Assembly (NCBI GenBank): GCA_030068145.1
Contig: JAPJBO010000345.1
Location: forward strand, 154,815-218,814
Direction of reading: 5' to 3'
Source of the DNA: Diplonema papillatum
Taxonomy: Eukaryota; Euglenozoa; Diplonemea; Diplonemida; Diplonemidae
Length of the DNA: 64,000 nt
The notes beneath the pieces were generated by a model. That model searched no databases and was not told where the DNA came from. It saw nothing but the letters and a program-made list of their open reading frames with translations. The position numbers and the translations under genes were made by a program. Of the stretch, positions 28,359-57,212 are shown piece after piece (position 1 is the first letter of the stretch; the number at the start of each line of letters is the position of its first letter).

Positions 28359-28396
28359 GATGTTGCGAAAGTGTATAGTTCCATCTGGTCCAGACG

Positions 28397-29275: not shown

Positions 29276-29284
29276 CACCCCAAC

Positions 29285-29744: not shown

Positions 29745-31255
29745 GTCACCGGGGTAAACACCATTCTCACACTTTTTCAACAATTCTTACCATTCTCACA
29801 CGGTTGCAACAAATGCTACCTTTCTCACACAGTCGCAACAAATGCTACCATTCTCACACAGTCGCAACAAATGCTACCATTCTCACACAGTCGCAACAAA
29901 TGCTACCATTCTCACACAGTCCAAACAATTTCTTACCATTCTCACACAGTCGCAACAAATGCTACCATTCTCACACAGTCCAAACAATTTCTTACCATTC
30001 TCACACAGTCGCAACAAAATGCTACCATTCTCACACAGTCGCAACAAATGCTACCATTCTCACACAGTCGCGTGTACACACAAAATGATTAGAAAGCTAC
30101 AGGGCAGTGTGAGGTTTAGCTACAAGAAGCTATAGCTAGCTACAGCGTAGCTTTTGTAGCCTTTTGTAGCCTTTTGTAGCTCTTTTTTTGGGGGGGTTCC
30201 CAGCCCATTCAGGATACTTTTCGCCCCAAAGTTCTTCAGTTTCGAAGTTTTCTGGGCATATTTTGGCGTGTTTCCTGGCACCTGCTTGCCCTGTTCACTG
30301 AGGCCTCACTGCCGGGCCCGCTGCAGCCTACCGAGCCTCAGTGAGGGTCGGTGAGGCTGCAACCACGCAGGCGGCGAGGGTGATGCAGCAGGGAAGCCTG
30401 GGGCGCCAGAGTCACGACGGTTCCATGAAGCGAAGCCAATCAGGACCCCAACCGCAGAGCGAAGAGCGCTCGAGACAGTGTGGGCCCGGAGCCCCGGCTG
30501 GAGCTCTCATTGCACTCCAGAGCCCCGGGCTGAGTCAGGTATTTGGCCGGTACCACCACTTACCAACACTTGGGCAGATGCTGCAGTGTGGACTGCCGAA
30601 GCCACCGTTTAGACCAGTCACTCCCCGTCGGACGGGGCCCCCCAAAAAGCCTCTCGGGGCCTCCTGGGGATTCGCCACAAGAACGCACTCACCCACCCTT
30701 TGGAAGATAGTGGAGACCATTCCTCAGTCCGGAGGCTTCCGGGTAGGGAGAGGCACAGAGAAGCAGCTCCACCGTGACGGCGGCAATCAACCGGAAAAAA
30801 GGCCGATTCACATGCTGCTCGCCTTCGACCTGGCGCGCGCTTTCGACGGGCAGCACGCTTCCGGCAGGCGGGACTCCCGGGAAGAGCACGCCGCTCAGCA
30901 CGAATCAACCCCGACTACTTTACGCGTATTCCCCGGGTGAGAATGCCCAAACTTGACACATTGCAATTCAAGTCACTTTGGCCCTTTGGAAAGTTTGGGG
31001 TCTTATAATCTTAGGATTTGAGTGGCGTCGGTTCAAACCCGCCTCTCTGGTCTTTGGTATTTGTTGCGACTGTGTGAGAATGGTAGCATTTGTTGCGACT
31101 GTGTGAGAATGGTAACATTTGTTGGAGCTTGTGTGAGAATGGTAAAATTTGTTGCGACCGTTTGAGAATGGTAAGGTTTGTTGAAACTTGTGTGAGAATG
31201 GTAAAAATTTGTTTGTGTGAGAATGGTATTTGCCCCGTGGTCACCACGGTGGCTG
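29745..31255. mobile_element. DNA element (family B) with inverted minisatellite ends; captured RT fragment
   Basis: Left array 29757-30066 repeats ACCATTCTCACACAGTCGCA (unit about 27-30 bp, 11 copies). Inverted copies lie at about 31068-31232. The outer edges are also inverted (GTGGTCACCGGGGTAAACA versus the complement of TTTGCCCCGTGGTCACCAC). The core contains a degenerate RT fragment (about 30690-30860: SGGFRVGRGTEKQ and MLLAFDLARAFD). That fragment resembles the RNase H LINEs at 47-56 kb. No transposase remains. Architecture is like the MULE families A and C. Confidence 0.65.
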
Positions 31256-37149: not shown

Positions 37150-40100
37150 ATGTTTGTGCCCATTCTCGAACACTCGCTAACTTTTTGCCCATTCTCGAAC
37201 ACTCGCTAACTTTTTGCCCATTCTCGAACACTTTTTAACTTTTTGCCCATTCTCGGTAACTTCGTGCCCATTCTCGAACACTATTTAACTTTTTGCCCAT
37301 TCTCGAACATTCCAGTTTTTGTGATGAAAATGTCCCTTCCCCGAGACATTTGCCTCAAGTTTTACCGCGAGAACAGCTGAGTTCACTGATTCGAAGACGG
37401 TACCCTTGCTAACTTCAGGCCGCAGCCTCTTCGGCATCTACACTCGGGTTCTTGGTTGCTTCAAGCTCTTCTACACGTGACGGTGGTGTGCGAGCTACCC
37501 CGTTTAAAAACCCGGCACAGACTTCACTGAGTTTGCTCGTCTTGCTTGCAAATTGTGCGGCGGCCATTGAGTGACCTTAGTTCACTGACCTACACCAGGA
37601 GAAGCAGCTTGCAGCAAAGTGATTCAAAAAGTTTGACCGAAAATTTTTGGGTCAAAAAATTTCGGTCAATTTTTGGGTCAAAAATTTAGGACAAAATTTT
37701 TGGGTCAAATTTTTTGGTCAAAAATTCGGGGTCCAATTTTTTTGGTCAACTTTTTTTCAGAGTTGAAGTGGCAGCGGTTACACTTGGCACATGGCTGCAT
37801 GCAGGGCTGGTTAGCCACAACTTGCCACATTGTGGCCCATTTAGCCACAACTTTAGCCACAATGTTGTGGCTAAATGTGCAAAAATTTTGATCGGAAAAA
37901 AGACCACCCAAAACACGCTAAACACCGTTTTTTGTGTGGATTTTCGTGTTTTTTGGATGGTTTTGGGTATTCTGGGCCTCATACCCCCCCAACAGACCTC
38001 GAGTTCGCTTCTCGTGGATTCGAGTGGTTTTTGCCAACTTGCAGCCAAGTGCTGCCAATTTCTGGGGTGACTCAGCCAGAATTCGCTATTATTTTGCGAA
38101 ATCCGCGGCTTGTGGGGGTTTTCCCGGATGGTACTGGACCCTTTCGACAATTTCAGGTGGATTCTGTGCGAATAAACGGGGGAAATCCTTGCCAGGCTCC
38201 TCGTTCCACACGGTGGCCACACGTGACGAAGCTCCCCAACCGGACTTCTAACCGGAGCCGACAACAAGGCACACCGGAAACCGTTCCTCTCCCGACCTAA
38301 CGGAGCTAAAGGATGGCCAGGTACATTCATGTTCCCATGTTTCCGGCTAAGGCCCAGGCTCCGTACACTTCAAAAAAAGAAACGTGGCAACCGTGTGGCG
38401 ACCAGCCTGCTGTCCAGACCGATTCAATCGCCGGCGATTTTGAACACTGTGGTATTTTCGACAGCAGGACTCGGTCCAAGTCCCGGGGTAGGCTGTCATC
38501 GCGGATAATGACTTCAACAGTTCACTACGAATGCGACACGATCATGTCCGCAAACCCGTTGCACAGGATTTGCACCGACCCGTGCACCAGTTTGCTGTCG
38601 GTTCCTTGCTACTGTAAAAAGTTTCCGTTCATCGATTACTTGTTGCAACTGTTGCATTGCAAGCAACCTATCCTGGACTCAGGCTGGGGGCTGATTTCAC
38701 CGTCAAATTTGATGCCATGATGAGAACGCGAAACCGAGAGTCTGGTAAGCACATGACTGGCGCTTGCACGGTGCAGAGTACGGAAGAGTACACTGCGCAG
38801 CGGTGCTGCCTGCCAAGCGGGTCACCTCCTCCTGAACACCGAGCAGGATGACGGTCACTGGTCTCGCCGCGCCTGGGCAGTGCTACACCGTGCAGTGCAC
38901 GGCGATGCAGAGCTGATGCGCACCGGTTGTGATACAACCTGTTCTGCATCTCCCTCGGGTGCGGCTCCGAGCAGCACCAACCTGGTGACCAGGCTCGGTG
39001 CGATTCGCACTGAACTAAGCCGTGACGAAGAAGAACGAAAAAGCGGATGAGTGGATGAGTGAACGTCGTTGCATGCAGTTCCGCGGCTGGAACAACTTCA
39101 ATTCAGAATGTCAGTGGCATGAATTGAAGGATGTCAAGCTTTCGCAGCCTGAATCAGGACTGCTGAGAGGAAAGGTGAGTCCCAGTCGACTCTCGAGCTG
39201 TTGGGAGTGGCAGTGGCAATAAACCGGGACCGCGGTAGCATGAACCATGTTTGGAACGTGCACGTGACACGAAGATACCCATCCCGTGTTGCGCAGCGCA
39301 CGGGACCGGGGAGCCTGGCAAGCATTTCCCCCGTTTATTCGCACAGAATCCACCTGAAATTGTCGAAAGGGTCCAGTACCAACCTAGCGAATTCTGGCTG
39401 AGTCACCCCAGAAACTGGCAGCACTTGGCTGCAAGTTGGCAAAAACCACTCGAATCCACGAAAGGCGAACTCGAGGTCTGTTGGGGGGGTATGAGGCCCA
39501 GAATACCCAAAACCATCCAAAAAACACGAAAATCTACCCGAAAAACGGTGTTTAGCGTGTTTTGGGTGGTCTTTTTTTCGATCAAAAAATTTGCACATTT
39601 AGCCACAATTTAGCCACAACATTGTGGCTAAAGTTGTGGCCCAATGGGCCACATTGTGGCAAGTTGTGGCTAACCAGCCCTGCTGCATGATGGCAGGAGA
39701 AATGGCTCCTGCCATGCGCCCTGGCGGCTCGCCGGCAATTCCAGTCTCTCTCTCAGCCTGCCAGCCTGCGGCAGGGAGGACAAGATCCAGTCACCAGCCG
39801 CCAGCTCCTGATTATTTTCAGACGACTGGCACTTTTTCTTTGCAGCTTCTACTGTAAGAGTAGCATCACTCAAATCTTGATTGGCCCGCTCCTCCTCTGG
39901 AGTCATTCGTGACGTCGCGCCCGTCGCTGGTTACTACTCGTTGTAAAACAGTGGCTCTGATTCTGAAGAGGTTTCGGCACAGAATTAGGAAGCGCTAAGT
40001 AGGTCACTCGCGCATACCTGAATTATGCACGAATCTGTGTGCACAATACCTTTAGAAAACCGTTTACCCGTAGTCTGCGGTGTCAGTGACCCAGTGCGCA

Positions 40101-40405
40101 ACCAGGGTACCGAGCCGGGACGCAGCAGCCAACCACAATGCTGGCACCTTGTTCGAGGAACGGGGGTGGTGAGTTCGAATCCCACCCTGGGCAATTTTCA
40201 ATGTTCGAGAATGGGCAAAAAGTTAGGCGACTGTTCGAGAATGGGCAAAAAGTTAAAAAGTGTTCGAGAATGGGCGAGTGTTCGAGAATGGGCAAAAAGT
40301 TAAATTGTGTTCGAGAATGGGAATTAGCCCGCTGTAATGGGCACTCGAAAACACCGAATGGGCAAATCTAAGAAAACCGTGCTGTAATGGGCACCAGCCC
40401 CCCTG
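37150..40405. mobile_element. DNA element (family D) with TTTTTGCCCATTCTCGAACA arrays at both ends
   Basis: Five to six direct copies of CTTTTTGCCCATTCTCGAAC lie at 37155-37312, and inverted copies (GTTCGAGAATGGGCAAAAAG) at 40198-40320. Related TGGGCA units continue to 40395. In the core are a complete TIR transposon (37802-39682) and a 50-codon minus-strand frame, 37415-37567 (MAAAQFASKTSKLSEV). That frame has a diverged counterpart near 45230-45290. No transposase core is seen. Confidence 0.6.
37802..39682. mobile_element. hAT-like TIR element T1 (1.88 kb, ~390-bp inverted repeats)
   Basis: The ends read CAGGGCTGGTTAGCCACAAC and its complement. CAGGG.TG is the usual hAT end. CTGCATG flanks it at 37795-37801 and 39683-39689. 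The empty site exists at 29328 (CTGCATGATGGCAGG in repeat S). Inverted repeats extend to about 38200 and from about 39300. The core has no transposase. A plus frame ending at a good donor (39022-39171, ...SGLLRGK|GTGAGT) could be a captured exon. Confidence 0.9.
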
Positions 40406-40421: not shown

Positions 40422-40492
40422 TGCGTAAACCGGGAATCGAACCCGGGCCGACCCCGTGGCAGGGGGCCATTCTACCACTAGACCATTTACGC
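40422..40492 (-). tRNA. tRNA-Gly (GCC)
   Basis: The minus strand folds as a standard 71-nt tRNA. Acceptor GCGTAAA pairs with TTTACGC. The D arm starts TGGTCTAGTGGTAGAATGG (A box). The anticodon stem CCCC/GGGG closes loop CTGCCAC with anticodon GCC. The T arm is CCGGG-TTCGATT-CCCGG (B box). The discriminator is A. No intron is present. It lies 220 bp from the 3' edge of the LINE array. An AATG microsatellite lies just upstream of its 5' end (40505-40520). Confidence 0.97.
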
Positions 40493-40712
40493 TGATTTTT
40501 CGAAATGAATGAATGAATGAAAAACAAGCACCGTTCCTTCAGCCGCTCAGAAGAGCAGCATCCGGAACGGTCAGGCGTTACTAGCCCGTTTGCGCCAAGA
40601 GACACGCGCACGAGTGACAGGTCCACAGGTTAGGGGATAGGAAGGGGGGGGTCGACGAGGGAAATAAGAAAGAAGACGGAAATAAGTAAAGAAATAAAGA
40701 AAGAAAGAAAGA

Positions 40713-43700
40713 ATGGCTTCCATACCTAGTATGGTTTCCCAACCATCCCCATCAAGGGGACCTCAAAGGAGTGGAGCAAGGTGCCCTGGTGGCCTGAAAA
40801 AAAAAAAAAAAAAATTCGATTTTTTTTTTTTTTTTCCATCAGGCACCTTCCTTTCCACCGGCCCAACGGACCGCGATTCTAAGTAAAGAACAGCCGCTCT
40901 GTGAGCCGGCTTCGAGGTTAGGCCGGCTGTACTGGGCCGCTTGTTTGCCGGTTTGGGTGAAAGCAGAAAGAAAAGAGTGATTGCTTGATTGTACGTTTTT
41001 CGCTCGGTGGCTTCCCTGCGCCCACTAGGTTCAGTTGAGCGGAGGTTCCAGCATTGCATGTCTTCAAGTTCTTGAACTTCGGCGTACTTATGTAGGTGGT
41101 TGCGTGTCTGTGGGTGATTGTGGGTGGCTCCTTCCGATTGCTCGGGGTGCCTTTCCTCCCACTACGTTCGCGTCGCTGCGGGTGGGCTTTTCTAGGTTGC
41201 CGCCAGCACCTGCGCGGCTTCTCCCCATCGGGGCCTGTACGGCCGGGTGACGAATCCGTGGTGCCGCCGCGGCAAAAGAAAACTGTTTGGTTGTTTGGTG
41301 ACAGTGGTTCTCACCAGCCTCCCCGGCCTTGTTTCCGACACAGTTGTTAGTCGTTTGGTGAGGAGTGGGCATTCCTTCAGCTCGAAGTAACAACCGGTTC
41401 TCTGTTGTCGCCCTGGCTGGCGGCTGTGTTTGTGGTTGCCGGTCACCGGTCTGGCGTTCCGGGTTCTCGTCCGTCGGTGTGGGGTTGTTACTTCGATAAG
41501 CGGCTCACTCCGTGACTCTATCACGGGGCTGTGCGGGGCCTTGGTAGAGGTGGGAGGGGTGTTGGGAAGGAGGGAAAGGAGTAAAAGTCAGCCAGAGTAG
41601 AAGCTTCTAGAGCCGCCAGTCGTCCGCTTCGGCCACCATAACCAGATCGCCTTCCGGTTGCTGCGATTCAACTGTCTGCTCGTCCGACATGTCTTCCGCC
41701 TGTGACGAGATGTCTGAGGCGGCGTCCAGCACGCTTTGAGTCGACTGGAGCTCGGGCTCGGACGCTGAGGATGCGAGGATGGTGTAGTGCGGGAGTACTC
41801 CCGCACGCTGCAGGTATGCAAGCGCGAGTTCGGGGTACTCGAACAAGGTGCACCACAGTTCGTCGGCCGCGTTCGGGAACCCGCCCTTGTTGCGGTGTTC
41901 CACCTGGTTGCGCATCGCGAGCCTGAAGGGCGCGGTCGCGTCGTCTGCGCACGCCTTGAACAGGTGGAGCACAGGGCTGGTCGTGAGCGACCCGCAGATC
42001 GGGCACGGGCGGAAGGTTCGGGCGCGCTCGGCTGTGCTGAGCGCGCGCATGTCCGGGGTGTACATCGTCCGGATGAGTGGGTGATGCCCGGTGCGCAGCT
42101 GGCGAATCTCCCGTTCGGCCCGAGGCGTCAAGTGCCGGCGCCGCTTTATCGTCCGGCCGTTGACCAGCCTAACGAACGGAGTCGTGTTGCCGTCCTTATC
42201 CGCCCGGTAGTAGGCTTCCCTGGCCTGTCGTTCCCTGTCTAGGTTCAGGTATGCCTTGTGTCGATACTTGACGTCCGCGGCGCTAATTTGAATGGCAGGT
42301 GGAGGTGTGGCATGTGTCGCGGCTGCGCGAGCAGTAGATTCTTGGAGCTCAGCTGCCGCCGCCTTGGCCAAGGAGTCCGCCATGTCGTTGCCCGCGAGCC
42401 CACAGTGAGCGTACACGAATTGCAGCGTTATCGCGTACCCCCTCGCTCTGAGCTCGCATAGCAGCAGCCAGATCCTAATGTTGGTTGGATCCTTCTGCTT
42501 ATACGACCCCAGACTGAGGACTTTGAGGAGCGACTGAGAGTCGCTTAGAACGACGATGTGGCGCGGTTGAGAGGTTGCAGGTAGGTGTTGCTGGAGGAGG
42601 TGGAGGGAAGTACAGATCGCAACCTGCTCGGTCCGGAAGCTGCAGACGTATCGGCCCGCTTTTACCGACTTCTGGATTGTCTTCCGGCCGGTTTGCAAGC
42701 ATCGGGCCACGAGCGGTTGGTCGTCCACCTCCTCGAATGTCACGGTCGGGCCGATTTCGCAGAAGATGCCTGCACCACCCCAGGTGGGCCTGTCGACGAA
42801 CCGCCTGATCCACGGCCGCAAGTCCTCGGAGCGATACGGGTCGCATACCGTGGCCGGCGGGGGGTCGCTGCTCACCACAGAGCCGTCAGTCCAGACGCAG
42901 CAGTCCGCCGGTGGCAGTTTACTCAGCTGCCTGAGGACCCGGCTCAACTTTTCTGCCTTGCTGGCGTCCCGCTTACCCGGGAGCGAGGCGTTTATGACCA
43001 CGTCAGGGCAAGGCTGCCAAGGGGCAAAGGGGTTGAAGAGAAAGGTCTCCCGTCCACATAGGTGCGTTCCCGATAGGTTGTCGATGCTATCGTACGCGTC
43101 GCTGAGCGTCGTCTTGAGGCCCAGCTCGTGGTTCCAGAGCTGCGGTCGGTGTCGCATCCTCTCCCTGAGGGCGGCTATGCGCGCTTGGATGATCGCGCGG
43201 ATCGGAAGTACCCCGGCTTCTTGCTGGGCAGTGAAGTCGTTGAGGTTCTTCCTGCACCCCAGCACGCAGATGAGAGCCCGACGGTGAAGTCGTTCGAGCA
43301 TCGTCACTTGTGGTTCCGCAAGCGAGTCGTACGTTAGAAGGAAGGGGCCGTATACCCCGAGGGCGTACGTGAACGTCGGTAGCACATACGTAAGGTAAAG
43401 GGTGCGCAGCGTGCGGGTACTGAAGCCGTAGGACTTCCCCGAGAGGTGGCGGAGGAAGTTCAACTTGAGTGAGAAATTGTCTACCACCCTCTGGACGTGT
43501 GGCACAAAGGAGAAATCCTGATCGATCCAGAGTCCCAGCAGTTTCGTCTTCTCGACCCAGCGCAGGCGGACAGCCACCCGGAGAGTTACCACCGGGGCTT
43601 TCGGGTCGGCGTTCAGCGCATCGGAGATCTCAGCTCTTGTCACCTGGGTTTTCGTACTCTTGCCGTTGATGGAAAGAATGTGCTTCCCGTGATGCTCGAG

Positions 43701-44217
43701 CCACGAGGAGCCCTCTCCCCAAACTGCGTGCGGTGTACTTCTGGTGATTCGCCGCAGTACTTGCGCAGCCGGGATCTCCAGTTCCACCATAGTGGATTCG
43801 AATACCACTATTGGGTGTTGGCGACTCAGTTCTCCTGGCGCTTGGATAAGGACGCCTTCTGTCTTGAGTTTCGACAGCTGCATGCCCGCACGGGCTGTCC
43901 ACAACTCTACAACGTTGACCACTTCTTGTGCATGGGTTTCAAGTTCCCGGGGCGTCTTGGCGACCACTGCTACTCCATCGTCGTCCGCGAAGAGGGAGAA
44001 CGTGAGCTCGGCACCAGCTTCCAGTGTTCGCGCGCGGAGGGCGTTGAGGTCGTCCCCCAGGTCATCGATGTGGTACAGAAACAAGAGTGGGCCCAGCACG
44101 GTTCCTTGGGGGACCCCATCTCTCAGGTGGAATTCGTTGCCAAGCTCGCCGTCAAGTAGGAACGCTGCCTTCCTCTCCCTTAGAAACGCCTCGATCCATC
44201 TCAGGAACTTGGTCGAT
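40713..44217 (-). mobile_element. LINE X1, 5'-truncated, RNase H-bearing
   Basis: The coding part runs 44217-41607 (minus). 3' untranslated sequence continues to an A17 tract (40821-40837 read as T on plus), then TTCGA and an inverted-orientation ~88-bp module (40713-40800) with its own A19 tract. The 5' end breaks inside RT and is joined directly to the (GAAATT)n tail of LINE Y. It is the last member of the four-member head-to-tail array. Confidence 0.8.
41607..44217 (-). CDS. LINE X1 polyprotein (RT C-terminal half, RNase H, zinc knuckle)
   Basis: The open frame covers about 870 codons (830 from the first internal start). Before it, FLRWIEAFLRERKAAFLLDG belongs to RT. Next come GVPQGTVLGPLLFLYHIDDL and the catalytic LFADDDGVAVV, then a thumb. 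RNase H I follows from about residue 400 (VWTDGSV, FRTEQVA, LSDSQSLL, FVYAHCGLAGNDMADSLAK), with all four acidic residues present. A CPIC...HLFKAC knuckle and an acidic tail end the protein. It lacks endonuclease and RT motif A because of the 5' truncation, so it cannot be autonomous. Similarity in order and motifs to X2 and Y is clear. The family is Tad/I/Ingi-like in layout; exact clade is not decided. Confidence 0.9.
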
Positions 44218-44314
44218 CAATTTCAATTTCAATTTCAAAAATTTGGAAACCGCACCCGGGTTAGGCTTGGGGATACGGTGCTAAGGTTCCTTGTGCCTTC
44301 TCTTCATCCTTGGG

Positions 44315-45992
44315 CATAGCTGTCAGCCACAAGGTTGCCACATTGTGGCCCCATTTAGCCACAAAGTAGCCACAAACCTTGTGGCTACCTTTGTGGCTAA
44401 TTATGCAAAATTTTGGTATCACGGAAAACCGCGTGGAACTAACTTTTTCGGCCAGAAAATGCATCTGAAACACGTTTTCTGACGATTTTGACAGGGTTTT
44501 GGGCCAGAATACGGGTTAGTTGTTACACCCTGGGCTCGGCATCCTGGTTGCGCACCCTGGGGTACCATTGGTAAACGGTTTACTAAACCGCTACTGCTAC
44601 TAAAGTAGTAGTAGGCATTATGCACACAGAATCATGCATAATTCAGGTTGGCGAGAGTGACAGACCCATTCTACTTGCAAAGCGCTTACCATTTCTGTCC
44701 TGAAACCCTCTGAGAGGGCCTCTCAACCAGCGACCGGCGCTCTCCGAGCCTCTTGAATGACCCCAGAGGAGGAGTGGGAGAGAGCGGCAAGTACCGCCGC
44801 AGCCAAACAGATTTGAATGCTGCCAGAAAGCTGCAAAGAAAACGTGGCAGCCGTCTGATAATAGTCAGGAGCTGGCGGATGGTGACTGAGCTTGAGCTCC
44901 CTGCCGCGGGCCTGCGGCCCGTGCTGCCCTGCTGGACTGGTATTGTCGCAAGTCAGTCACTTTCAACTTTCCCTTGTGCCTTGGCTGGGCCTGTGCTACA
45001 GGAGCCTGCGAGGAATTTCCAAGACGTGTGAGAGATTGCCCCCGCTACTTTTCTCGGATCTTTGGCTCCTCCTTGAACTCTTTCGGACGCTGATTGCAAC
45101 AAGTGTAACAGTGCCACTCAGTGACAGCTGTTACAGGGAGTCAGTCACACTGTCAGTGTGCTCCTGCTGTACTATCATAGTAACTATGCCTGCTGTCGTG
45201 TGAAGTTGCGAGCTCTGTGCACTTTGCAAGCAAGCAAGCAAACTCGCTGGTGACGGGGTAGCTTGCACACCGAGTAGAAGAGCTGTCGTAATTGTGAAAT
45301 GCTCCGTTTGCTGGGTCGTTGCTGTCCTGTTTAACCTTGGGTATCTTAGAATATCAGTGCATCGCCGTTACTAGTACGGCTGTCACCGGCGTGGTTTGGG
45401 TCCTTTAGCAGGAAAAGTTGGAGACTATGCACCCCGCAACTGAAACGGGTTTGCGGACAAGCGACCCTTTGAACTAAATTGATTCCTTGCCTGCTCCAAA
45501 ACTTGGCAACAGAAGCATTGGCAGCTTCGTACTGACTCTGCGGTCTGAAATATCAACATCGCTTTCGACGGGTTCGTCTTCCTCCGGTGCACTCTCTGAC
45601 TCAAAATGTACCAGAACAATGGCATTAGCATTGGTGCTGCGACCGTGTTGGCAAGATGCAGCAGCTTGTTGATGTTTTCTGAACTTTTCAAGCCTTGAAT
45701 TACTTGCAGTGTTGTACGAAGTTACTGATAGAGTTGCCAACGTTGCCGCTGACTCGCGGATGAGGATACGAGGCCAGGGCGAAGCAGCTTACCCAAATTC
45801 GGGCCCAAAAACCTGTCAAAATCATCAGAAATTGTGTTTTAGATGCATTTTCTGGCCAAAAAAACTAGTTTCACGTGGTTTTCCTGGGTATCCAAATTTT
45901 GCATAATTAGCCACAAAGGTAGCCACAAGGTTTGTGGCTACTTTGTGGCTCCCAATTAGCCACTAGTGGCTACCTTGTGGCTGACAGCTATG
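44315..45992. mobile_element. hAT-like TIR element T2 (1.68 kb) inserted in LINE Y 3' UTR
   Basis: The ends are CATAGCTGTCAGCCACAAGG and its complement, followed inward by AGCCACAA-rich inverted repeats to about 44420 and from about 45890. CCTTGGG flanks it at 44308-44314 and 45993-45999. The empty site is present in the second Y copy at 56253-56262 (CATCCTTGGGGCG). The core carries repeat Q inverted (44510-44665) and a 60-90 codon minus frame (45474-45740, SRLEKFRKHQQAAASCQHGR) of unknown nature. T2 and T1 share the layout CA..GCTG..AGCCACAA. Confidence 0.9.
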
Positions 45993-47770
45993 CCTTGGGG
46001 CGTTTGTTTGTTTTCTGTTTCCTTTCGTTCGTTCTTGGTATGGTTGTGGGGGGGTTCAGTGGGATTGTTTCTTGCCCGCCCTCCCCTTGTTTCTTGCCGC
46101 TCTTCTGGTAATGATGTCCTGGCGTGCCAGGCTTTACCAGTCGCGGTCGGTGTGTTTCCGGCGATTGTCGCGCTGTCAGTTGCCTGTGATAGTAATTTGT
46201 CAAGGGTTTGCTTTGGTTCGCTGCTGATATGCTGCTTGGCTCTGCGTGTTGTGTGCAGTGATGGTTGTTTTTCCTTGGTTTTGTTGTGGCTTCGTCCTTC
46301 GCTCGCCCTCCCTTTCCGGTGCGGTGTTCTGACGTCTTTTGGTAACCCTGGCGTGCCAGGTTTGCCTGTTGAGTCGGTCTTCCGTGTCGGTCGGGGGGGG
46401 TTTGCTTTCGCTTCTGTTGTTGTCGGGCGCGTGGCGCTGTTTCGCTGCCGCTGCCCGTCCTGCTGCCTTCGCTCTTGTGGGTTGTTGTTGAGCGTGGTGC
46501 GTGTAGCACTGAAACGGGGGGTTAATACGTTGTCTGTTGTTTTGGCAGGACTCGGCTTCTCTTGCGTGCTTGGGGGGGGGGCGTTGTTATTGGTTCTGGT
46601 TTTGTGGGACAAGGTAAGGGAAAGGTATTTCTTTTTCGGCAGTTGGTGGGGGGTATTTTTTGGACTTGTTGTGCGGCTCTCCCTTCCGGGCGGTGTTCTG
46701 ACTTCTGTTGGTAAACCCTGGCGTGCCAGGGTTTGCCTGTTGAGTCGGTCCTCCGCTTCGGTCGGGGGGGGCTGGTTTGGTTGCTGCTTGTCTCTGTTTC
46801 GCTTTGCGGCGCTGTTGCGTGGTGCGGTCCGTTGGGCGCTTCGCCTGCCTCTACTTTGTTCTTCCTTCCGGGGCCTTTGAGCTTGCTGCTTGTCTCTGTT
46901 TCGCTTTGCGGCGCTGTTGCGTGGTGCGGTCCGTTGGCCTGTTCGCTTCCGGCAGCGTCAGAAACACTGGGCTGGTGTTTCCGACGCTGTTCTATCCCGT
47001 GCTCATTGTCCGCTCTCGGCCCGGAGGGTTGTCTTTTTTTTGTTTTGGTTGCTAATGCACTGTTCTTGTGTTGCAGCTACCTGTCTGCCTCAGTGACCGC
47101 TCCTGTGCTCACTCTGCGTGGTGCGGTCCGTTGGCCAGGTCGTCTCCGGCAGTCGGAAACACCGGGCTGGTGTTTCTGACGCTGTTCTATCCCGTGCTCA
47201 TTGTCCGCTCTCGGCCCGGAGGGTTGTCTTTTTTTGTTTTGGTTGCTAATGCACTGTTCTTGTGTTGCAGCTACCTATCTGCCTCAGTGACCGCTCCAGT
47301 GCTCACTCCACCCTTTTGGACCTTCCTATGGTCAGGTGGGTGTGCTGTCGGTGCACCGAGTCTACCCTTCGTTGGTAGTCGTGTTCGGTCGCGGCGCTGT
47401 TGCGCTGCTGCGGTGGTACTTTTGTTTGCCTTCTTTTCTTTCCCCTCTCTTTTCTTATTGTTCTCAGGTGCTGTTCGGTCCGGTGACCGGCTGCGTCCGT
47501 GTCGGCGTGCGGGCTTCGGCTGTTCGTCGGCGCCTGCGTCTCCGTTGTCGTGCTGCCGGTTTACTGCTGCCGCCTTGCGGCGGTTGGTCGGTGGCCGTGG
47601 GGACTGTGTAGTGCCGGGTGTGTGCGTCTGGTGTTGGACTGCGCCGTCAGCGTACTGATTCGCGCTTCGCACTCAGCAGCCCTGTTGCGCCTGCACCGGC
47701 GGTCGGGTGAGGTTGCTTTGCACGGATGTGCCGGGTGTGTTGCCGCCTCAGTCTTCCGACCCGGCCCGAA

Positions 47771-50700
47771 TTATGCCCATCCTTCGGCATCCTCGGAGCT
47801 TGATCCCTCGAGGTCGAAGGTGTTGTCGACGCCATTGGTAGCTGCTGCCGCCATGTTGCCGTCGAGTTCCGGTGTGCCGGGCTCAGGTGGGTCTTCGTAG
47901 ACCTCGTACTTCGGCACAAGCCCCACGGCCTGAAGGTACGCGAGGGCTGCTTCAGGGAGCTCGAAGAGCAGCGGCCAAAGCAGCTTGTGCCTTTCCCTGG
48001 GTGTCGGCTTTTCCCTTGGTGTGTCCGGGATGGCCTTGTGGACCCGTCTCCACATGGTCGCTCTCTCGTCGCCCCCGATTCTGCATTCCAGGAAAAGGTG
48101 TGTTAGGGGGCAGATCGGCGTGGCGTCGCAAAGCTGGCATGGGCGGGTTGCTTGCCTCTCTTCTGCTGCGAGATCCATCCAGTCGTCCCGGTAGCAGTTC
48201 CTGAGGAGTTGGTGGTGTCCCGTGCGAAGCTGGCGGATCTCGCGCTCGGCTCGCCTCGTCAGGTGTGCCGTTTTTGGGACCTTCCGTCCTCGGACCAACT
48301 GCGTGTACGGCAGCGGCCCGCCCGGTTGGTACGGGGATTCCCGCATTGAAGCCGCGTGTAGTGCCTCCCAGGCGTGCTCGCGGTACCGGGCCTTCGCGGT
48401 TCCTACCGTCATCGGCGGCTGCGTTTCTTCTCCGGTCTGCGAGACGCCCTGCTTCGCTAGCCCGTCCGCCTCTTCGTTCCCTGCTAGTCCGCAGTGGCCG
48501 TAGACGAACTGGAGTACTGGTGTATACCCCTTCGCAACCAGTTTCTCGAGCGCCTGCCAGATTCGGACGTTGTCCCGTTCTTGCTGTTTGTGCGGACCTT
48601 GGGACAGCACGTTCAGAAGGGAGCTGGAGTCGCTGAGCACCCAGATGTGTCTGCTGGTAGGCTCTCCTTCGAGTACCTCCCTCTTTCCCAGTTTCAGCTC
48701 CAGCGATTCCAGCGCAATTTTCATCGCCACTTGCTCCGCGCGGTAGCTGGTTGCCCACTTACCGGCCTGACGGCTTAGGCGGGTCCCTTTCATCGGCGTC
48801 GCGTCTCTCCAGCTTTCTTCTCGGCGGTAGTACACCACGAGACCTGCGCCACCCCACCTCGTGACCTCGTCGGTTGTTACGGTTGTACCGTGGAGCAGCT
48901 GGTACTGTGCGTGTCTTCTCTTCAGCGCCGCAACCGATCCGTCCGTCCAGACGATGTATGTCGGGGATGGCAATCCGTCGAGGACTGCCTCTGCCTTTCT
49001 CCGGTTTTCCTCGGCGCTTTTCGACTTCTTTGGAAGTGAAGCGCAGATGTGGAGCTCTGGTGGCGGCTTCCAAGGTGGGAAGGGATTTGGTGCGTGCTTC
49101 TCCCGCCGTGGCTTCGATGTTCGCGCCGTCTTCTTGAGGATGAGGAAGGACTGCGGGAGGGTGTCGTTGGTTCGTCGCGGATGCAGCACGTCCTTCCACA
49201 TGGTCTTCGTGGCCATCTTTTCCGCCAGCGCGCCTGTCCTGAGGTCGGTTATCGACCTGATTGGCAGCATTCGTGCCTCGGTGAGGACAGCTTCCGTCAA
49301 CGTCGTCTTCTTGCAGCCAACCACGGCGCAGAGTGCGGTTCGATGCAGGCACTCTATCCTGTCCACGTCCTTCTTCGATGCATAACGGATGTAGACTGCC
49401 ATGCCGTAGGTTAAGACCGGCAGGGCGTATGCCATGTAGAGGGCTCTGAGCACTTCGGTCTTGTGGCCCCACTTCGTCCCGGATACCAGCTGTACCAGAT
49501 TTACCCTCCGCCCAGCGCTCTGCAGTATGCGATCTATGTGAGCGGTGAAGTTCAGTCTGTCGTCGATCGTCAGCCCCAGGAGTGTTACCTTGTCCTTCCA
49601 CTGAAGGTCTGACACCACCGTGAACTCTATGGGGTTTTGGGCCGTCTCCCCGATTCGATGGATATTTCGTCTCCATTGCGGTTGCGTTGTCGTTGGCACT
49701 CCGCCGATTGACACTATCCTCTTCTTGTTGTGTGGGCTGGATGGATCGATGTAGCGGAGCGCCCCATCTTGCTCGTGTGCCTTCCTGCCGAATTCGGTTG
49801 GTGCCTCAGTGACTTTTTGGTGCGAGTTCGGGAAGGTGATCAGAGGTGGGTGGACCCTCCTTCGCATGTTCGCGGGTCGGTTGCCAGACTTGTCGATCGG
49901 GCGGAATTGAACAGCCTCCGTCTTCTTGTACGCCAGGTCCATCTTCGCCTCGGAGGCCCAGGTTGAGAGTGCGTTTACCACTCGTTGGACTGTTTCTTTG
50001 AACCCTGCCGCCGAGCGACCAGCCACTACTACCCCCACGTCGTCGGCGAATAGAGATGGGGTCACGCTATTTGGATTGGTGCGTGTTGGTTTCGGCATCG
50101 TGGACAGCTTTTCGCCGAGGTCGTCGATGTACAAGAGGAATAACACTGGTCCGAGCACAGTTCCCTGGGGGACTCCACTTTCGAGTGTCACCTCTTCGCC
50201 GTATTTTCCCTCTACCCGGAACTTTGCCTTCCTGTCCTGCAAGAAGGCCTCGACCCACCTCACTATCTTCGGCGGAATGCCGCGACGCTTCATGATCGCG
50301 ATGAGTCTGTCGTGATCTACCGTGTCGAATGCCTTTGCGAGGTCGAACACGAGTAGGCAAGTGTGGCATTCGTCCCGGAGGCTGCGGTCAACGGTCGTCA
50401 CGGTCTTGAACAGCTGTTCTTCTGTCCCCCTTCCTTTCCGGAAGCCACCTTGGCACTCCGTGAATGGTCGGACGTGAGGGTAGCTGTCTCCTTCGATGAT
50501 GAAATCGAGCCTTTCCCTGATCACCGTTTCCATGATCTTTGCCGCGACGCTCGTCAGCGAGATTGGGCGGTATCCTGCTGGTTCGGACTTGTCTTTTCCC
50601 GGCTTCGGAAGGGGTATGGCATGAGCCTCTTTCCACGGCTTTGGGATCGTCGCGTTGTCCCACGACGCGTTGATTACCTTCAGTAGTGCCTGGAGGGTGC

Positions 50701-51440
50701 CCTTCTCCATCGCTTTGTAAACTTGGGGGCAGAGGCCTTCCGGGTCGGTTGATGCCTTCGCTTTGAGCTTCTCGACTGCTCTCTCTATTTCGGCTAGAGT
50801 GATCGGGCCTTCGGCTTCGTTGTTCGCGGTTTCCTGGCGTTTTCCGGATGGCGTCGCAGGCTCCGTCGTCGGTGTTGAACCCGTCTTCTTCTTGCAGACT
50901 TCGGTGTTATGCTGGGTTTTATTTGTGGTTTCCTGGCGTTCATCGGACGGTGTCGCCGGCTTTGTTGTCGGTGTTGGTTCCGTCTTCTTCTTGCAGACGT
51001 TGGCGTAATATTTGGCGAGGAGGGTTGCCTTCTCGGCCGGGTCGGTGGTGGTCCGCTCTCCTGACCGGAGGGGAGGGAGTGTGCTACTCGTCTTCTTCCC
51101 GTCGATTTCGCGGACCGTCCGGAACAGTAGCCCTAGGTCTGTTCCGCGGTTCACTTTGTCGACGATTCCGCCCCAGTAGATCGTCTTGGCGTGTAGCGCC
51201 GCTTCCGCGAATCTCGCCCTCGCTTCTTCGTACGCGGTCTTTGCGTGCTCCGTTTTCTGCTGCTGGAACGACCGGAATGCGGCGTCTTTGCTCCGAGACA
51301 GAGGTGTCAATGTCTTGTCCCACCACGGCCTCGGGGGCAGCTTCCCAGTTGACTTGGGGATGTGCTCGCGGATCGCGTCTCGATTCTCCAGGCGTTTGGG
51401 GATGAACTCCCAGATGCAAGCCCTAGTTCAATAGCCGAGC
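47771..51440 (-). CDS. LINE Y polyprotein (RT, RNase H, zinc knuckle)
   Basis: The frame is open from the truncation point (about 51440). The first Met-type start is at 51310, giving 1179 aa. In order: a Lys/Thr-rich linker, a 30-residue tandem duplication beginning CKKKT(E/G)(P/S)TPTT, RT with GYRPISLTS, QGGFRKGRGTEEQ, LVFDLAKAFDTVDH, GVPQGTVLGPVLF and SLFADDVGVVV. RNase H follows (VWTDGSV, SYRAEQVAM, LSDSSSLLN, FVYGHCGLAGNEEADGLAK). A CQLC...HLFLEC knuckle and an Ala/Glu tail (DLEGSSSEDAEGWA) end it. All RT and RNase H acidic residues are intact and no stop interrupts it. Only the endonuclease is missing, by 5' truncation. The antisense frames here are shadows. Confidence 0.95.
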
Positions 51441-51460
51441 GGAAACTGGTCCGCGAAAGG

Positions 51461-54400
51461 ATGGCTTCCATACCTAGTATGGTTTCCCAACCATCCCCAT
51501 CAAGGGGACCTCAAAGGAGTGGAGCAAGGTGCCCTGGTGGCCTGAAAAAAAAAAAAAAATCGATTCTGTTCTGTTCTGTTCTGTAGGGCGGAACGAAGCC
51601 CGGGCAAGACGAGGCAAGACGGTCTCTAACGGGCAAGCGTACACTTATCGGTGGATGTCTTGGCTCTGGGAACGATGAAGACCGCGAGTGGTTCTTTGTG
51701 CCACCATTTACTCCGTTGTGTTGTTTGTGATGGAGTGATGACTACTACTTGTTCGTTTATCGGTTTTTTGTTTCACGTAAATTGTTTTTCCTTCTGGCTA
51801 CGGTTCTTGGTTCTCGTTATTGGGTTCGCTTTCTGGTAATGGTTTTCGGTTTACGTAAATTGGTTCTCTTTCTGTTAACGGTTTTCGGTTCACGTAAAAG
51901 TTTGAGGTCCTACTCCAAGTCCGAGGGCGTGGTCAGGGCGCGCAGCTTTTCATGTTTCAATGCTGTCTCCTCCGAGCCGTACCTTCTCGGGTGAGCATCG
52001 GACCTCAGTTTTGCTTGCGATGCTTGAGGCACCTATACGTACTGGGCAAATCAATTCGCTTTTCGCTAGTAATGCCTCTGCTCCTCTTTCTACTTTCTTG
52101 GTTCAAAGTGTCAAGTGCAAGGTGCCGGAGTAGAATTCTCTAGCTTCCTACTCTCGTTCTCCATTTGTACTTCGCTTCGCTTTGCCTTCGTTTCGTCGCT
52201 CTTCGAGGTTGCTTCGACGTCGGGGGTCGGCCGTCTCGCGGTCACGGTCGTGACTGTTCCTCGGACGCGCTCTCGTGGGCCGGGGGGGTTGTCCCTCCGA
52301 CGGACGAGGCGGGGCCCGGTATGCGGTGGTTGAGTCGGGGCCGAGTCCGATTACGGGCGTGCAAATCCGCTGGCCTCGAGTTCGCGTGTTTGTGTCGCGG
52401 TTCTCGTGGCGGATGGGCGGGATTCGGTGGGCTGTTCGTCGGGTGTGGTCGGCACGAGTATCCGGTACTCCTCCAGCAGTCCGGTCCCTTGCAGGTACTC
52501 GAGTGCCGTCTCCGGGTGTTCGAACAGCAATCTCCACAGCTGTTCGTGTCTCGGTATCCACACCGGTTGGCCACCCTCCCGCCGTAACGGGGAGGCCACT
52601 TCCCACATCAGGTCACGCTTCCCTTGCGTCCCCTCATGGCCGCAGTCCAAGAAAAGGTGCGAGACCGGGCACTCGGCTACCTCTCCGCAATGCGGGCAGG
52701 GACGATTCGAGCTCCGTTCGGACTTCGCTAACGCGTCGTAGTCCTCCCGGCACCAATTGCGAAGGAGGCGGTGCTGGCCCGTGCGGATCTGCCTGATCTC
52801 ACGCTCGGCCCGTCGCGTGAGGTGATCGATTTTCGGGAGTTTCCTCCCGTTGACGATCTGCGCGTGTGCGAGTTTCCCGTCGTAGTGGGAGCCCAACTCC
52901 GGGTGGGCCTTCAGCACGCCTGCCGACCACCTCTTCTGCACATAGCTCTTGTGCCTGGCCGCCGCCGTCGATCGCGTGAGCGGGGGACGGGGTCCCCTTT
53001 CTCCTGGCGAGCTGGCGCCGGTCTTCGCCCGGGTATCCGCTTCGTCGTTCCCGGCCAGTCCACAGTGGCTGTAGACGAACTGGAGGTGGATGGTGTACCC
53101 ACGATCGGCGAGCTTGCCCAGCAGCTGCCAGATCTCGATGTTGGCTGGGTCGACTTGGCGATGTGGTCCATGGTCGAGGTCCTGGAGGAGCGAGCTCGAG
53201 TCAGTCAGTATCCACAGGGTTTTGTCGTTCCTCCTGCTCAGACTGCCCACGAGGACGCGCAGGGCTCTCTGCATCGCCACCTGTTCCGCCCGGTAGCTTG
53301 TCGCCCACTTGCCGGCCGGACCGCTGTTGGTCGCCCACCAGGGAAGATCGTCTTGCGCGCTTCTCCGTATCGACCAATTCTCTCCGGATTCGATGGCAAA
53401 CCCGGCTCCTCCCCATTTCGTCTCCGTGGGTGTCGGTTCCGTTGTGCCGTTGAGGACTGTTAGCGCCGGTTCCATTGTGGTTTCCTCAACAACAGAGCCG
53501 TCGGTCCAGGTTACCAAGAGCGGCGTCGGCAGGGCGGCTAACACACGTTCCACTACCCTTCTGTTCGCCTCCACGTCTTCCGACTTCTTCCTCAGTGTTG
53601 CCGAGATGTGCACTTTGGGGCACCGTGGCTCCCACGGCGCGAACGGGTTCGCCTTGCGGGTCTGCCTGTCGACGTCTTCCGTCCGCGCGCGCCTCTTCAG
53701 GAGTCCGTATTTGACGGCGATCGTGTCGTGCTTGTTTGTGGGGACCAGGGTGTCACGCCACTGCGGGTAGGTCGCCAGCTTCTCGCACAGTGTTGCGAGT
53801 CGAAGATCGGCATAGACCGAGATTGGCTGCACCCGCGACTCAATCGAAACGGCCTCCACGGATGCCGAGCGCCTGCATCCCGTGACGGCGCAAAGCCCGG
53901 CCTTGTGCTGGCTCTCCAGCTTCGCCATGGTCGTCGGTCTGGCAAAGGCGCCGTATACCGACAGGGCGTACGTCATCTTCGGGAGTACGTAGGTGTAGTA
54001 TAGCGAGCGGAGCGTCTTCGTTCGATGACCCCATGCCGCACCGGATACAAGCCTGAGAACGCACGCGTGTTTGGCCGCGCCCGCAGTCACTCGGCTGACA
54101 TGCTGGTCGAATGTCAGTTCCTCGTCGAAGGTTAGACCCAGTAGGGTGACGGTCTTCTTCCATTCGAGTTCCCTCACCAGGGAGATCGTCAGCCGGTCGG
54201 AGCCCTCTCCGATGCTCTCCTCCGCAATTGTTCTCTCTTGCAGGGTGCGAGCCGCCTTTCCGTTCAGTCCGGTCACTCGCTTTTCGTGGTGTTGGCTCTG
54301 TGGTGCAAACAGCCGACGAGCCGTGCGACCGTGCTTCCTCGTTCTCCTTTTGTACGCGTCCGCGCGGATCGCCACGTTCGCTCGGGTTGCCGGGAACTCT

Positions 54401-56160
54401 ATCGTCGGCGGCGACGCGTCAGGGTTTCCGGGGCGCTTGAACAGTATCGCCTCCGTCTTTGCGTGCGATAGCTGCATCAGCGCCTCGTCCGACCACTTTT
54501 CCATCGCCTGTATTATCAGACGCACGTTCTTCGCCATCTCCGCCATCGTTTTGCCCGTCGCTACTACGCCTACGTCGTCGGCGAAGAGCGAGGCCGTTGA
54601 GTCCTTCAGCTTCGCCAGGTCGTCCCCGAGGTCGTCGATGTACAGCAGGAACAGTATTGGTCCTAGTACAGACCCTTGCGGAACACCGCCCTCAAGTTCC
54701 GCCGAGGCGCCGTACTCACCGTCCACTCGGAAGATCGCGTTTCTGCCCTTGAGGAAGGACTCCACCCATCGAATGAGCTTCAGCGGGAGGCCCCGCTCTA
54801 CCATTCGTTTCTTCAGGCGCGCGTGGTCGACTGTGTCGAAAGCGCGCGCCAGGTCGAAGACGAGTAGGCACGTGTACCGGCCTTTCCTTCGGTTCCGGTC
54901 GATTGCCGCCGTTACGGTGTACAGCTGCTCCTCCGTGCCTCTCCCTATCCGGAAGCCCCCCTGGTTCGGCGTGAACGCGCGGACCGAGGAGTCTCCTTCG
55001 ATGAGGAATGTGAGGCGGTCCTTGATAATGGTCTCCATTATCTTCGATGCAATGCTCGTGAGCGAAATCGGCCGGTAGCCCGATGGCTCCGAGCGGTCTT
55101 TGCCCGGCTTCGGGAGCGGTGTCACGTGTGCCTGTCGCCATTGGGAGGGAACACTTGCGTTGTTCCAAGATGCGTTGCATAGGTCTAGTACGCGGAGCCG
55201 CATCCCTTCGCCCAGGTGTTTGTAGGCCATGTGGCACAGCCCCTCCGGGTCCAGGCTCGTCTTTTTCTTCAGCTTCTCGATGGCTCTGTTCACCTCCTGC
55301 AAGGTGATCGGCGTATCGGCTTCGGACTGCGCGCCCAGCTGTGCGCCATCGGTGGTTTCCGCGGACCTATTCGCTCCCTGGGTCAAGTCCGGGCCTGTCA
55401 CGCTGCGTCCCGATTTCTTGCAGACGGTCGCAAGGTGTCTCACGAGAACGTTCGCCTTCTCTTTCGAGTCCGTGATGGCGACTCCCTCATGCTTCAATGG
55501 GGGGAGCGTGTGTTTCGATTTCTTCCCATCCAGCTGCCGCACTAGCCGGAACATGAGGCCTAGATCCGTCCTGTGGTCGATCGTGCTGACCAGTCGGTCC
55601 CAGTAGTCCGCCTTCGCCTCTGTCGCGGCTTTCGTGAACGCCTGTTTCGCCTCCGTGTACGCCTTCCCCGTTTCTTCGTTGTCTTCCTTTTGCATCCGTT
55701 TGAATGCAATGTCTTTCCGGCGTGAGAGAGGAGTCAGCGTTTTTGTCCACCACGGCTTCGGTGGTTTGTTGCCCGACGCCTTCGGGACGTACCGACTGAT
55801 GGCCCCTTTCATCCGGTTAGATATGGCGTCGGCGAGGCGCTGCGGGCTTTCCTTGTATTGTTCGTACTCGGTCTGGGGCCAGGTGTTGTCTTTTTCGAGG
55901 TATTTGGACATCTCCTTCCAGTCGGCACGGCTCCAGGCGTAGCGCGGTCGGACCTGTTCCCTCTTGTGCTCGTATCCGCGGGGCACTTCGAAGATGAGAG
56001 TGCGGTGGTCCGACCCCCAAGACTCGATCGTCCGCCAGTTGCATACAGCGTGCGGGTGTGCGGCCGAGATCGTGACGTCTGGCGACGTTTTGGACTCGTC
56101 CCGGGTCGGTGTTCCTGGGTCGTTCCAGACCGTCGTCTGTCTCAGGGTCATCAAATTGTG
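51461..56160 (-). mobile_element. LINE X2, 5'-truncated in endonuclease, RNase H-bearing
   Basis: The ORF is 56154-52351. A 750-bp 3' UTR ends with (CAGAA)4 (51563-51587), then TCGA, T15 and the ~88-bp module shared with X1 (51461-51548). The 5' end is joined to the 3' tail of another Y copy at about 56160. Confidence 0.85.
52351..56154 (-). CDS. LINE X2 polyprotein (endonuclease end, RT, RNase H, zinc knuckle)
   Basis: A 1267-aa open frame. It opens with the last AP-endonuclease motifs (SPDVTISAAH and WGSDHRTLIFEV), then a basic linker. RT follows with GYRPISLTSIASKIMET, QGGFRIGRGTEEQL, LVFDLARAFDTVDHARL, GGVPQGSVLGPILFLLYIDD and SLFADDVGVV. RNase H (VTWTDGSVVEE, SYRAEQVAMQ, LTDSSSLLQDL, FVYSHCGLAGNDEADTRAK) and a CPHC...HLFLDC knuckle complete it. 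No internal stop is present, so decay is slight. These proteins nick target DNA and reverse-transcribe their own RNA onto the nick (target-primed reverse transcription). Lack of the N-terminal endonuclease half makes this copy non-autonomous. Confidence 0.95.
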   Translation of the reverse strand: MMTLRQTTVWNDPGTPTRDESKTSPDVTISAAHPHAVCNWRTIESWGSDHRTLIFEVPRGYEHKREQVRPRYAWSRADWKEMSKYLEKDNTWPQTEYEQYKESPQRLADAISNRMKGAISRYVPKASGNKPPKPWWTKTLTPLSRRKDIAFKRMQKEDNEETGKAYTEAKQAFTKAATEAKADYWDRLVSTIDHRTDLGLMFRLVRQLDGKKSKHTLPPLKHEGVAITDSKEKANVLVRHLATVCKKSGRSVTGPDLTQGANRSAETTDGAQLGAQSEADTPITLQEVNRAIEKLKKKTSLDPEGLCHMAYKHLGEGMRLRVLDLCNASWNNASVPSQWRQAHVTPLPKPGKDRSEPSGYRPISLTSIASKIMETIIKDRLTFLIEGDSSVRAFTPNQGGFRIGRGTEEQLYTVTAAIDRNRRKGRYTCLLVFDLARAFDTVDHARLKKRMVERGLPLKLIRWVESFLKGRNAIFRVDGEYGASAELEGGVPQGSVLGPILFLLYIDDLGDDLAKLKDSTASLFADDVGVVATGKTMAEMAKNVRLIIQAMEKWSDEALMQLSHAKTEAILFKRPGNPDASPPTIEFPATRANVAIRADAYKRRTRKHGRTARRLFAPQSQHHEKRVTGLNGKAARTLQERTIAEESIGEGSDRLTISLVRELEWKKTVTLLGLTFDEELTFDQHVSRVTAGAAKHACVLRLVSGAAWGHRTKTLRSLYYTYVLPKMTYALSVYGAFARPTTMAKLESQHKAGLCAVTGCRRSASVEAVSIESRVQPISVYADLRLATLCEKLATYPQWRDTLVPTNKHDTIAVKYGLLKRRARTEDVDRQTRKANPFAPWEPRCPKVHISATLRKKSEDVEANRRVVERVLAALPTPLLVTWTDGSVVEETTMEPALTVLNGTTEPTPTETKWGGAGFAIESGENWSIRRSAQDDLPWWATNSGPAGKWATSYRAEQVAMQRALRVLVGSLSRRNDKTLWILTDSSSLLQDLDHGPHRQVDPANIEIWQLLGKLADRGYTIHLQFVYSHCGLAGNDEADTRAKTGASSPGERGPRPPLTRSTAAARHKSYVQKRWSAGVLKAHPELGSHYDGKLAHAQIVNGRKLPKIDHLTRRAEREIRQIRTGQHRLLRNWCREDYDALAKSERSSNRPCPHCGEVAECPVSHLFLDCGHEGTQGKRDLMWEVASPLRREGGQPVWIPRHEQLWRLLFEHPETALEYLQGTGLLEEYRILVPTTPDEQPTESRPSATRTATQTRELEASGFARP

Positions 56161-57076
56161 TTCGAGAATTCAATTTCAGTTTCAAAAATTTGGAAACCGC
56201 ACCCGGGTTAGGCTTGGGGATACGGTGCTAAGGTTCCTTGTGCCTTCTCTTCATCCTTGGGGCGTTTGTTTGTTTTCTGTTTCCTTTCGTTCGTTCTTGG
56301 TATGGTTGTGGGGGGGTTCAGTGGGATTGTTTCTTGCCCGCCCTCCCCTTGTTTCTTGCCGCTGTTTTGGTAATGATGTCCTGGCGTGCCAGGCTTTACC
56401 AGTCGCGGTCGGTGTGTTTCCGGCGATTGTCGCGCTGTCAGTTGCCTGTGATAGTAATTTGTCAAGGGTTTGCTTTGGTTCGCTGCTGACATGCTGCTTG
56501 GCTCTGCGTGTTGTGTGCAGTGATGGTTGTTTTTCCTTGGTTTTGTTGTGGCTTCGTCCTTCGCTCGCCCTCCCTTTCCGGTGCGGTGTTCTGACGTCTT
56601 TTGGTAACCCTGGCGTGCCAGGTTTGCCTGTTGAGTCGGTCTTCCGTGTCGGTCGGGGGGGGTTTGCTTTCGCTTCTGTTGTTGTCGGGCGCGTGGCGCT
56701 GTTTCGCTGCCGCTGCCCGTCCTGCTGCCTTCGCTCTTGTGGGTTGTTGTTGAGCGTGGTGCGTGTAGCACTGAAACGGGGGGTTAATACGTTGTCTGTT
56801 GTTTTGGCAGGACTCGGCTTCTCTTGCGTGCTTGGGGGGGGGGCGTTGTTATTGGTTCTGGTTTTGTGGGACAAGGTAAGGGAAAGGTATTTCTTTTTCG
56901 GCAGTTGGTGGGGGGTATTTTTTGGACTTGTTGTGCGGCTCTCCCTTCCGGGCGGTGTTCTGACTTCTGTTGGTAAACCCTGGCGTGCCAGGGTTTGCCT
57001 GTTGAGTCGGTCCTCCGCTTCGGTCGGGGGGGGCTGGTTTGGTTGCTGCTTGTCTCTGTTTCGCTTTGCGGCGCTG
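56160..57076 (-). mobile_element. LINE Y 3'-UTR fragment (extreme 5' truncation)
   Basis: This is nearly identical to 46825-45999 plus 44314-44217, without the T2 insertion. It ends in AAACTGAAATTGAATTC and then meets the start of LINE X2. The other edge (57076) breaks inside the UTR, next to repeat P. Both strands hold long frames (for example 56251-57189 minus). Because the same sequence is untranslated in LINE Y, I do not call them genes. Confidence 0.85.
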
Positions 57077-57084
57077 ATGCCGAC

Positions 57085-57147
57085 CGAGACTGGAGGTCCT
57101 ATGAACATGCAATGTGAATAGCCTCTATTCGAGCCAACCCGGCTTTT
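57085..57147. repeat. 63-bp repeat P, copy 2
   Basis: Identical to 28296-28358. It lies 8 bp beyond the broken edge of the LINE Y fragment. Confidence 0.9.
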
Positions 57148-57212
57148 CTTCATGAAAAAAGTGTATTGTTTTTGGAAAGAGCCGGGCAAGCTTTTTTTTT
57201 TCCTCGCAGAAG

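Follow-up and report, generated by a model that had tools for sequence, protein, structure and literature searches.

When long interspersed nuclear elements (LINEs) lie end to end, the usual explanations are targeting of telomeres, a long specific target, insertion of one copy into another or jumps between templates. Site-specific LINEs of the R1/R2 and SLACS/CRE types recognize a fixed target, which sets both the order and the direction of their arrays, and Zepp elements integrate within the poly(A) of a copy already in place. In the present study, we describe an array of four LINEs in Diplonema papillatum, found in a 64,000-base stretch of contig JAPJBO010000345.1 (hereafter, the window), in which the tetramer TCGA recurs at, or close to, the joints between elements. 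Our best reading, to which we assign slightly less than an even chance, is that the array arose by serial, separate target-primed insertions of three LINE families and a short module, S, which share a preference for the short palindrome TCGA. Compared to this proposed target of four bases, those of the R1/R2 and SLACS/CRE elements are long and lie in a repeated gene.

Several described arrays resemble this one. Nested Zepp copies are clustered in green algae, with 26 clusters of 1.5–42.3 kb in Coccomyxa, according to the part of PMC3446292 that deals with them. The array here, like the clusters of Chlorella and Coccomyxa, is a cluster of nested LINE copies; however, that part of PMC3446292 describes its clusters as Zepp elements, whereas the copies here are not of a single family nested in each other but belong to three families (33–44% protein identity) with TCGA joints. 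In Drosophila, the HeT-A, TART and TAHRE elements form head-to-tail, unidirectional arrays in which three LINE families are mixed, and in Giardia, GilM and GilT form subtelomeric head-to-tail arrays with one direction and some 5′-truncated copies, as outlined in the relevant passages of PMC5537684. The Diplonema array shares the head-to-tail order, single direction and mixture of three families with the former, and the unidirectional order, 5′-truncated copies and occurrence in a protist with the latter. The Drosophila arrays are terminal, whereas the array here has an opposite-strand module and TCGA joints, and three telomere motifs, searched as exact double units, are absent from the window, as are three spliced-leader motifs. 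The Giardia arrays adjoin telomere repeats, and the passages of PMC5537684 that describe them do not mention TCGA joints. Head-to-tail arrays of truncated LINEs are already known; what would be new is TCGA as the target, a variant if the rule holds. This locus is set apart in that three families are mixed where no chromosome end is evident, the S units are antisense and the joints carry TCGA.

Composition of the array

The LINE array at 57,080–40,820 is real. Self-comparison, open reading frames (ORFs), Pfam searches and a joint-by-joint reading showed four 5′-truncated LINEs placed head to tail on the minus strand, all of this evidence coming from one locus, within the window itself. The parts are given below in minus-strand order.

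57085–57170, minus strand: dispersed repeat R1, 5′ flank of the array; an 86-bp match at 90.7%, broken at TCG (57085–57087)
56166–57080, minus strand: Y2, LINE fragment known from its similarity to Y1; 3′ untranslated region (UTR) only, with a degenerate GAAATT tail
56153–56169, minus strand: minisatellite piece ATTCTCGAACACAATTT (17 nt) at the Y2–X2 joint, containing TCGA at 56162–56165
51564–56152, minus strand: X2, 5′-truncated LINE; ORF at 52351–56154 with reverse transcriptase (RT) and RNase H; 3′ tail (CAGAA)n
51640–51683, plus strand, antisense within the X2 3′ UTR: copy of the first ~43 nt of 5.8S rRNA (cmscan, RF00002)
51560–51563, unstranded: TCGA between the X2 tail and S-2
51455–51559, plus strand: S-2, copy of module S, tail to tail with X2; has a poly(A) run, and TCG (51454–51456) at its far end
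44217–51453, minus strand: Y1, LINE; ORF at 47771–51310 with RT and RNase H; tail (TTGAAA)3TTGA
44315–45992, unstranded: terminal inverted repeat (TIR) DNA transposon of 1678 bp in the Y1 3′ UTR; TIR match of 85.5%, 7-bp duplication CCCAAGG
44213–44216, unstranded: TCGA between the Y1 tail and X1
40820–44212, minus strand: X1, LINE truncated within RT; reading frame open between the joint and 41607; tail of 16 A
40816–40819, unstranded: TCGA after the X1 poly(A), the same as the TCGA before X1
40707–40815, plus strand: S-1, second copy of module S, tail to tail with X1; its poly(A) run has 18 A

A first-pass annotation of the locus had placed a Y2 fragment, X2, Y1 and X1 in this order on the minus strand and in a single orientation, and both the self-comparison and the reading of the joints bear this out. 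The 5′ truncation points differ, as it had also proposed: X2 is cut in its endonuclease-like end, Y1 upstream of RT and X1 within RT, and Y2 consists of 3′ UTR only. Likewise, Y1 and Y2 both finish in (GAAATT)n-like tails, and the two Y–X joints are indeed different from each other. Two features were absent from that annotation, namely, the 1.68-kb TIR transposon in Y1 and the antisense segment resembling 5.8S rRNA in the 3′ UTR of X2. The RF00002 match to the latter (51640–51740; 33.8 bits, E 8.7e-7) is below the gathering score of 42 and aligns well for the first ~43 nt only.

The division of the LINEs into two alternating types, X and Y, did not hold. Protein identity is 37% between X1 and X2, 44% between X2 and Y1 and 33% between X1 and Y1, and at the DNA level (matches of at least 35 bp at 80% identity or more) X1 and X2 share nothing but a terminal 105-bp module, which is 99% identical. 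Because the proteins are only 33–44% identical, X1, X2 and Y are classed by their predicted products as three LINE families rather than two. The ORF list gives a long open frame in three members of the array (1267 codons in X2, 1179 in Y1 and 830 in X1). Pfam RVT_1 was matched by Y1 (E 1.4e-31), X2 (E 3.2e-32) and, under the curated cut-off, the truncated X1 (2.1e-4); RNase_H follows RT in X1 (E 3.6e-7), Y1 (4.4e-7) and X2 (1.4e-5, 0.1 bit short of the curated cut-off). The RT of X2 matched L1 ORF2p chains with an E value of 4.5e-14 and chains named R2 with 2.5e-10. An RT domain, a downstream RNase H, 5′ truncation and a 3′ tail, as in LINEs (elements that lack long terminal repeats), are all found in the array. 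About 60 residues at the start of X2 may correspond to the end of an APE endonuclease domain, which they resemble around a GSDHRT motif, and Pfam gave no endonuclease match for this part. A short RT fragment at 30731–30847, flanked by inverted minisatellite arms, aligns with X2 over 126 columns at 82.5% identity.

Relatives were sought in viral, phage and prokaryote collections, where a miss says little on eukaryotic copies. In viral contigs, none of the pattern stretches was confirmed (3 for the X2 protein, 3 for the Y1 protein and 66 for the three-protein alignment), nor was any of 391 for this alignment in prokaryote genome contigs, and X2 had no match among phage records.

Y1 and Y2 match over about 920 bp in all, with 4 differences in 826 bp (99.5%) and 1 difference in 93 bp (98.9%). 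These few differences, together with the open frames, suggest that the insertions in the array were recent. Four unexplained nucleotides (57081–57084) separate the start of Y2 from the TCG of R1, and the 5′ limit of Y1 at 51453 is fixed solely by the end of the S match. Y2 carries the empty site of the transposon in Y1, which evidently arrived after Y1. A second TIR DNA transposon at 37802–39682 has a clean empty site at 29281–29403 and a 7-bp duplication, CTGCATG; part of its end (37810–37873) matches the transposon in Y1 at 85% over 67 bp.

S-1 and S-2, which are 99% identical over 105 bp, are the only copies of the module in the window, and both stand beside X tails. X1 and X2 adjoin the module at the same base despite their 37% protein identity. 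Since the plus-strand module ends in poly(A) (15 A then TCGA in S-2, 18 A then TTCGA in S-1) and each X has its own tail ahead of it, A16 in X1 and (CAGAA)n in X2, S reads as a small poly(A) retroposon. It looks like an independent unit that abuts X1 and X2 tail to tail, and it may be a short interspersed nuclear element (SINE). Exact S patterns gave no matches, with a 20-mer in viral contigs or with a 23-mer in prokaryote contigs.

TCGA and the proposed insertion mechanism

TCGA follows the tails of all four LINEs. It comes directly after the A16 of X1, the (CAGAA)n of X2 and the (TTGAAA)nTTGA of Y1, and after TTC behind the TTGAA of Y2 (offsets of 0, 0, 0 and 3 nt). X1 has TCGA on either side, the S-2/Y1 junction reads TCG, and the intact R1 copy at 28296–28380 reads TCGA where the copy flanking the array breaks at TCG. 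The first-pass annotation had each Y tail running directly into a truncated X; this is so at 44,216 but not at ~56,160, where the 17 nt of minisatellite sequence intervene. An exact copy of ATTCTCGAACACAATTT lies at 40302–40318, and 5 matches with at most two mismatches were found, the joint included, compared to 0.01 expected.

No tetramer other than TCGA is present in every one of the four tail windows (17–19 nt); TCGA occurs 328 times in the 64,000 bases. Random windows shared any tetramer at an offset of 0–3 in 0.11% of trials with three windows (X1 and X2 taken as one observation) and in 0.006% with four, and four random windows of 17–19 nt shared any tetramer in 0.45%, figures that are guides only because the motif was noticed after looking.

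Under the proposed mechanism, a LINE would nick DNA at TCGA and prime reverse transcription at the nick; synthesis would mostly halt short of the 5′ end, leaving TCG(A) on both sides, and the TCGA next to the 3′ tail would be restored and could serve as the next landing site. New elements would pile up right behind old tails because the TCGA beside each tail is restored, and, as TCGA reads the same on both strands, S could insert the other way round and so meet the LINEs tail to tail. Both the role of TCGA as the endonuclease target and the order of events are inferred. 5′ truncation, microhomology joining and variable second-strand nicks have been described, in the parts of PMC2912911, PMC2881922 and PMC4700185 that treat them. 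As the best reading of the locus, serial insertion at TCGA would account for the joints of tails with truncated 5′ ends, for the mixture of families, for the short repeats and for S lying on the opposite strand.

The more general claim is that a group of protist LINEs and a SINE share a self-perpetuating, four-base palindromic site, TCGA, and form mixed-family arrays in chromosome interiors without telomere targeting or template jumping; we consider it possible but rather doubtful. If true, a minimal palindromic site rebuilt at each insertion would suffice, and clusters of LINEs, including centromeric ones, could grow by a simple rule, which could be checked wherever a genome has several copies by scoring how often TCGA follows a tail. 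Literature queries on TCGA as a LINE target or on LINE self-insertion gave nothing relevant among the papers listed, the first being swamped by the acronym of the cancer atlas and the second leading to an LTR element, and this is not evidence of absence from the literature.

Several observations weigh against insertion at TCGA. The tetramers at X1 and X2 count once because both adjoin copies of the same module S. The TCGA at the 5′ end of X1 is in frame with the X1 coding sequence, at homologous codons, and may be part of it, in which case it reflects microhomology and not duplication. At Y2, the 3′ TCGA is displaced by 3 nt and the 5′ TCG is 4 nt away from where similarity to Y begins; no second copy fixes the 5′ limit of Y1, the 5′ end of X2 has no directly adjoining TCGA, and the far end of S-1 has no TCG. 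Dispersed-repeat ends fell at TCGA in 8 of 232 cases (58 pairs), compared to a background of 5.9%, and are not enriched, in a set that includes overlapping pairs and those of the array itself and in which many are minisatellites and TIR elements. Because TCGA gives no orientation, it does not explain why all four LINEs point the same way (1 in 8 by chance). Furthermore, the motif was picked post hoc, at one locus.

Alternative origins

The first-pass annotation offered two origins, consecutive template jumps and repeated insertion into LINE tails, between which target duplications around each member were to decide. Comparison of the 5′ and 3′ junction pairs showed no common flank of at least 8 bp except joints, tails, the module and one chance 8-mer. 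The array does not show the conventional LINE target duplication of ~7–20 bp per copy: the junctions have repeats of TCG/TCGA size, the best being TCGA at X1, and an imperfect 7-bp pair, AGTCTCG/ATTCTCG, at Y2. Insertion fits better, once modified to a site beside the tail, at TCGA, and jumps fit less well. With jumping, RT would start on X1 RNA and move on in turn to the RNAs of Y, X2 and another Y, all in a single target-primed event, and the resulting concatemer would have target repeats at its outer edges only. All LINE–LINE joints pair a 3′ tail (or a tail plus S or a short patch) with an internal 5′ end, as this predicts, and the outer edges are also compatible with TCG/TCGA; in the part of PMC8857657 that concerns it, R2 RT jumps between templates in vitro, although template jumping is perhaps not needed for retroelement proliferation. 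However, all RNAs would be copied in sense, yet S-2 inside the array has its poly(A) on the opposite strand; TCGA at internal joints is not predicted; and the Y2–X2 joint holds genomic minisatellite sequence. We consider this origin improbable. If LINEs were added in succession and without an endonuclease to the end of a chromosome, natural or broken, as at the telomeres of Drosophila, the outcome would be one direction, tail-to-truncated-5′ joints, mixed families and no long target duplications, and the Drosophila and Giardia arrays, as presented in PMC5537684, are of similar appearance. Such end addition leaves the TCGA at the joints and the antisense S within the array unexplained, and the three telomere repeat types were not found in the window, which makes it a fairly improbable account.

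Two further alternatives concern parts of the array. S might be the 3′ end of X-type LINEs, so that two families with a homogenised 3′ recognition tail inserted beside Y tails; in X1 as in X2, S does sit at the 3′ end, and a (CTTT)n run follows it in X1. Against this stand the 99% identity over 105 bp alongside 37% protein identity, the tails that X1 (A16) and X2 ((CAGAA)n) possess before TCGA, and the poly(A) run of S on the other strand. Folding, performed for S-2, was no better than that of shuffled sequences on the minus strand (z −0.11; plus strand, −1.34), and S as a structured X 3′ end was rejected on this ground. The explanation as a whole appears quite unlikely. The appearance of an array could also come from recombination between Y copies, from a duplication in place or from misassembly where the Y segments are 99.5% identical. 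Y1 and Y2 are nearly identical over their shared length, but different sequences come after their tails and the truncation points are not the same, and this explanation is very unlikely. Duplication of one Y–X unit was rejected, as both the joints and the X families differ.

Other features of the window

Minisatellites at 37153–37309 and 40202–40321, with repeats of ~29–30 bp, include CCCATTCTCGAACA-like units that contain TCGA. A tRNA-Gly(GCC) gene at 40422–40492, on the minus strand, has TCGA 7 bases before it and 4 bases after it. The two R1 copies (28296–28380 and 57085–57170) have ~63 identical bases within the 86-bp match, and the copy at 28.3 kb lies at the start of an IQ/EF-hand ORF.

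Other coding content of the window includes, besides the tRNA-Gly gene, an rRNA dimethylase (DIM1-like), a TmcB-like protein and a hAT transposase, a set that indicates eukaryotic DNA. Further RT sequences, mutually related and of another LINE type, are found at 11179–13278 (minus strand), 26781–27109 (plus strand) and ~62.0–63.96 kb (plus strand). A 109-bp dispersed repeat (1175–1283 and 10870–10977; 92.7%) does not end at TCGA, and one of its copies lies downstream of the RT ORF at 11179–13278.

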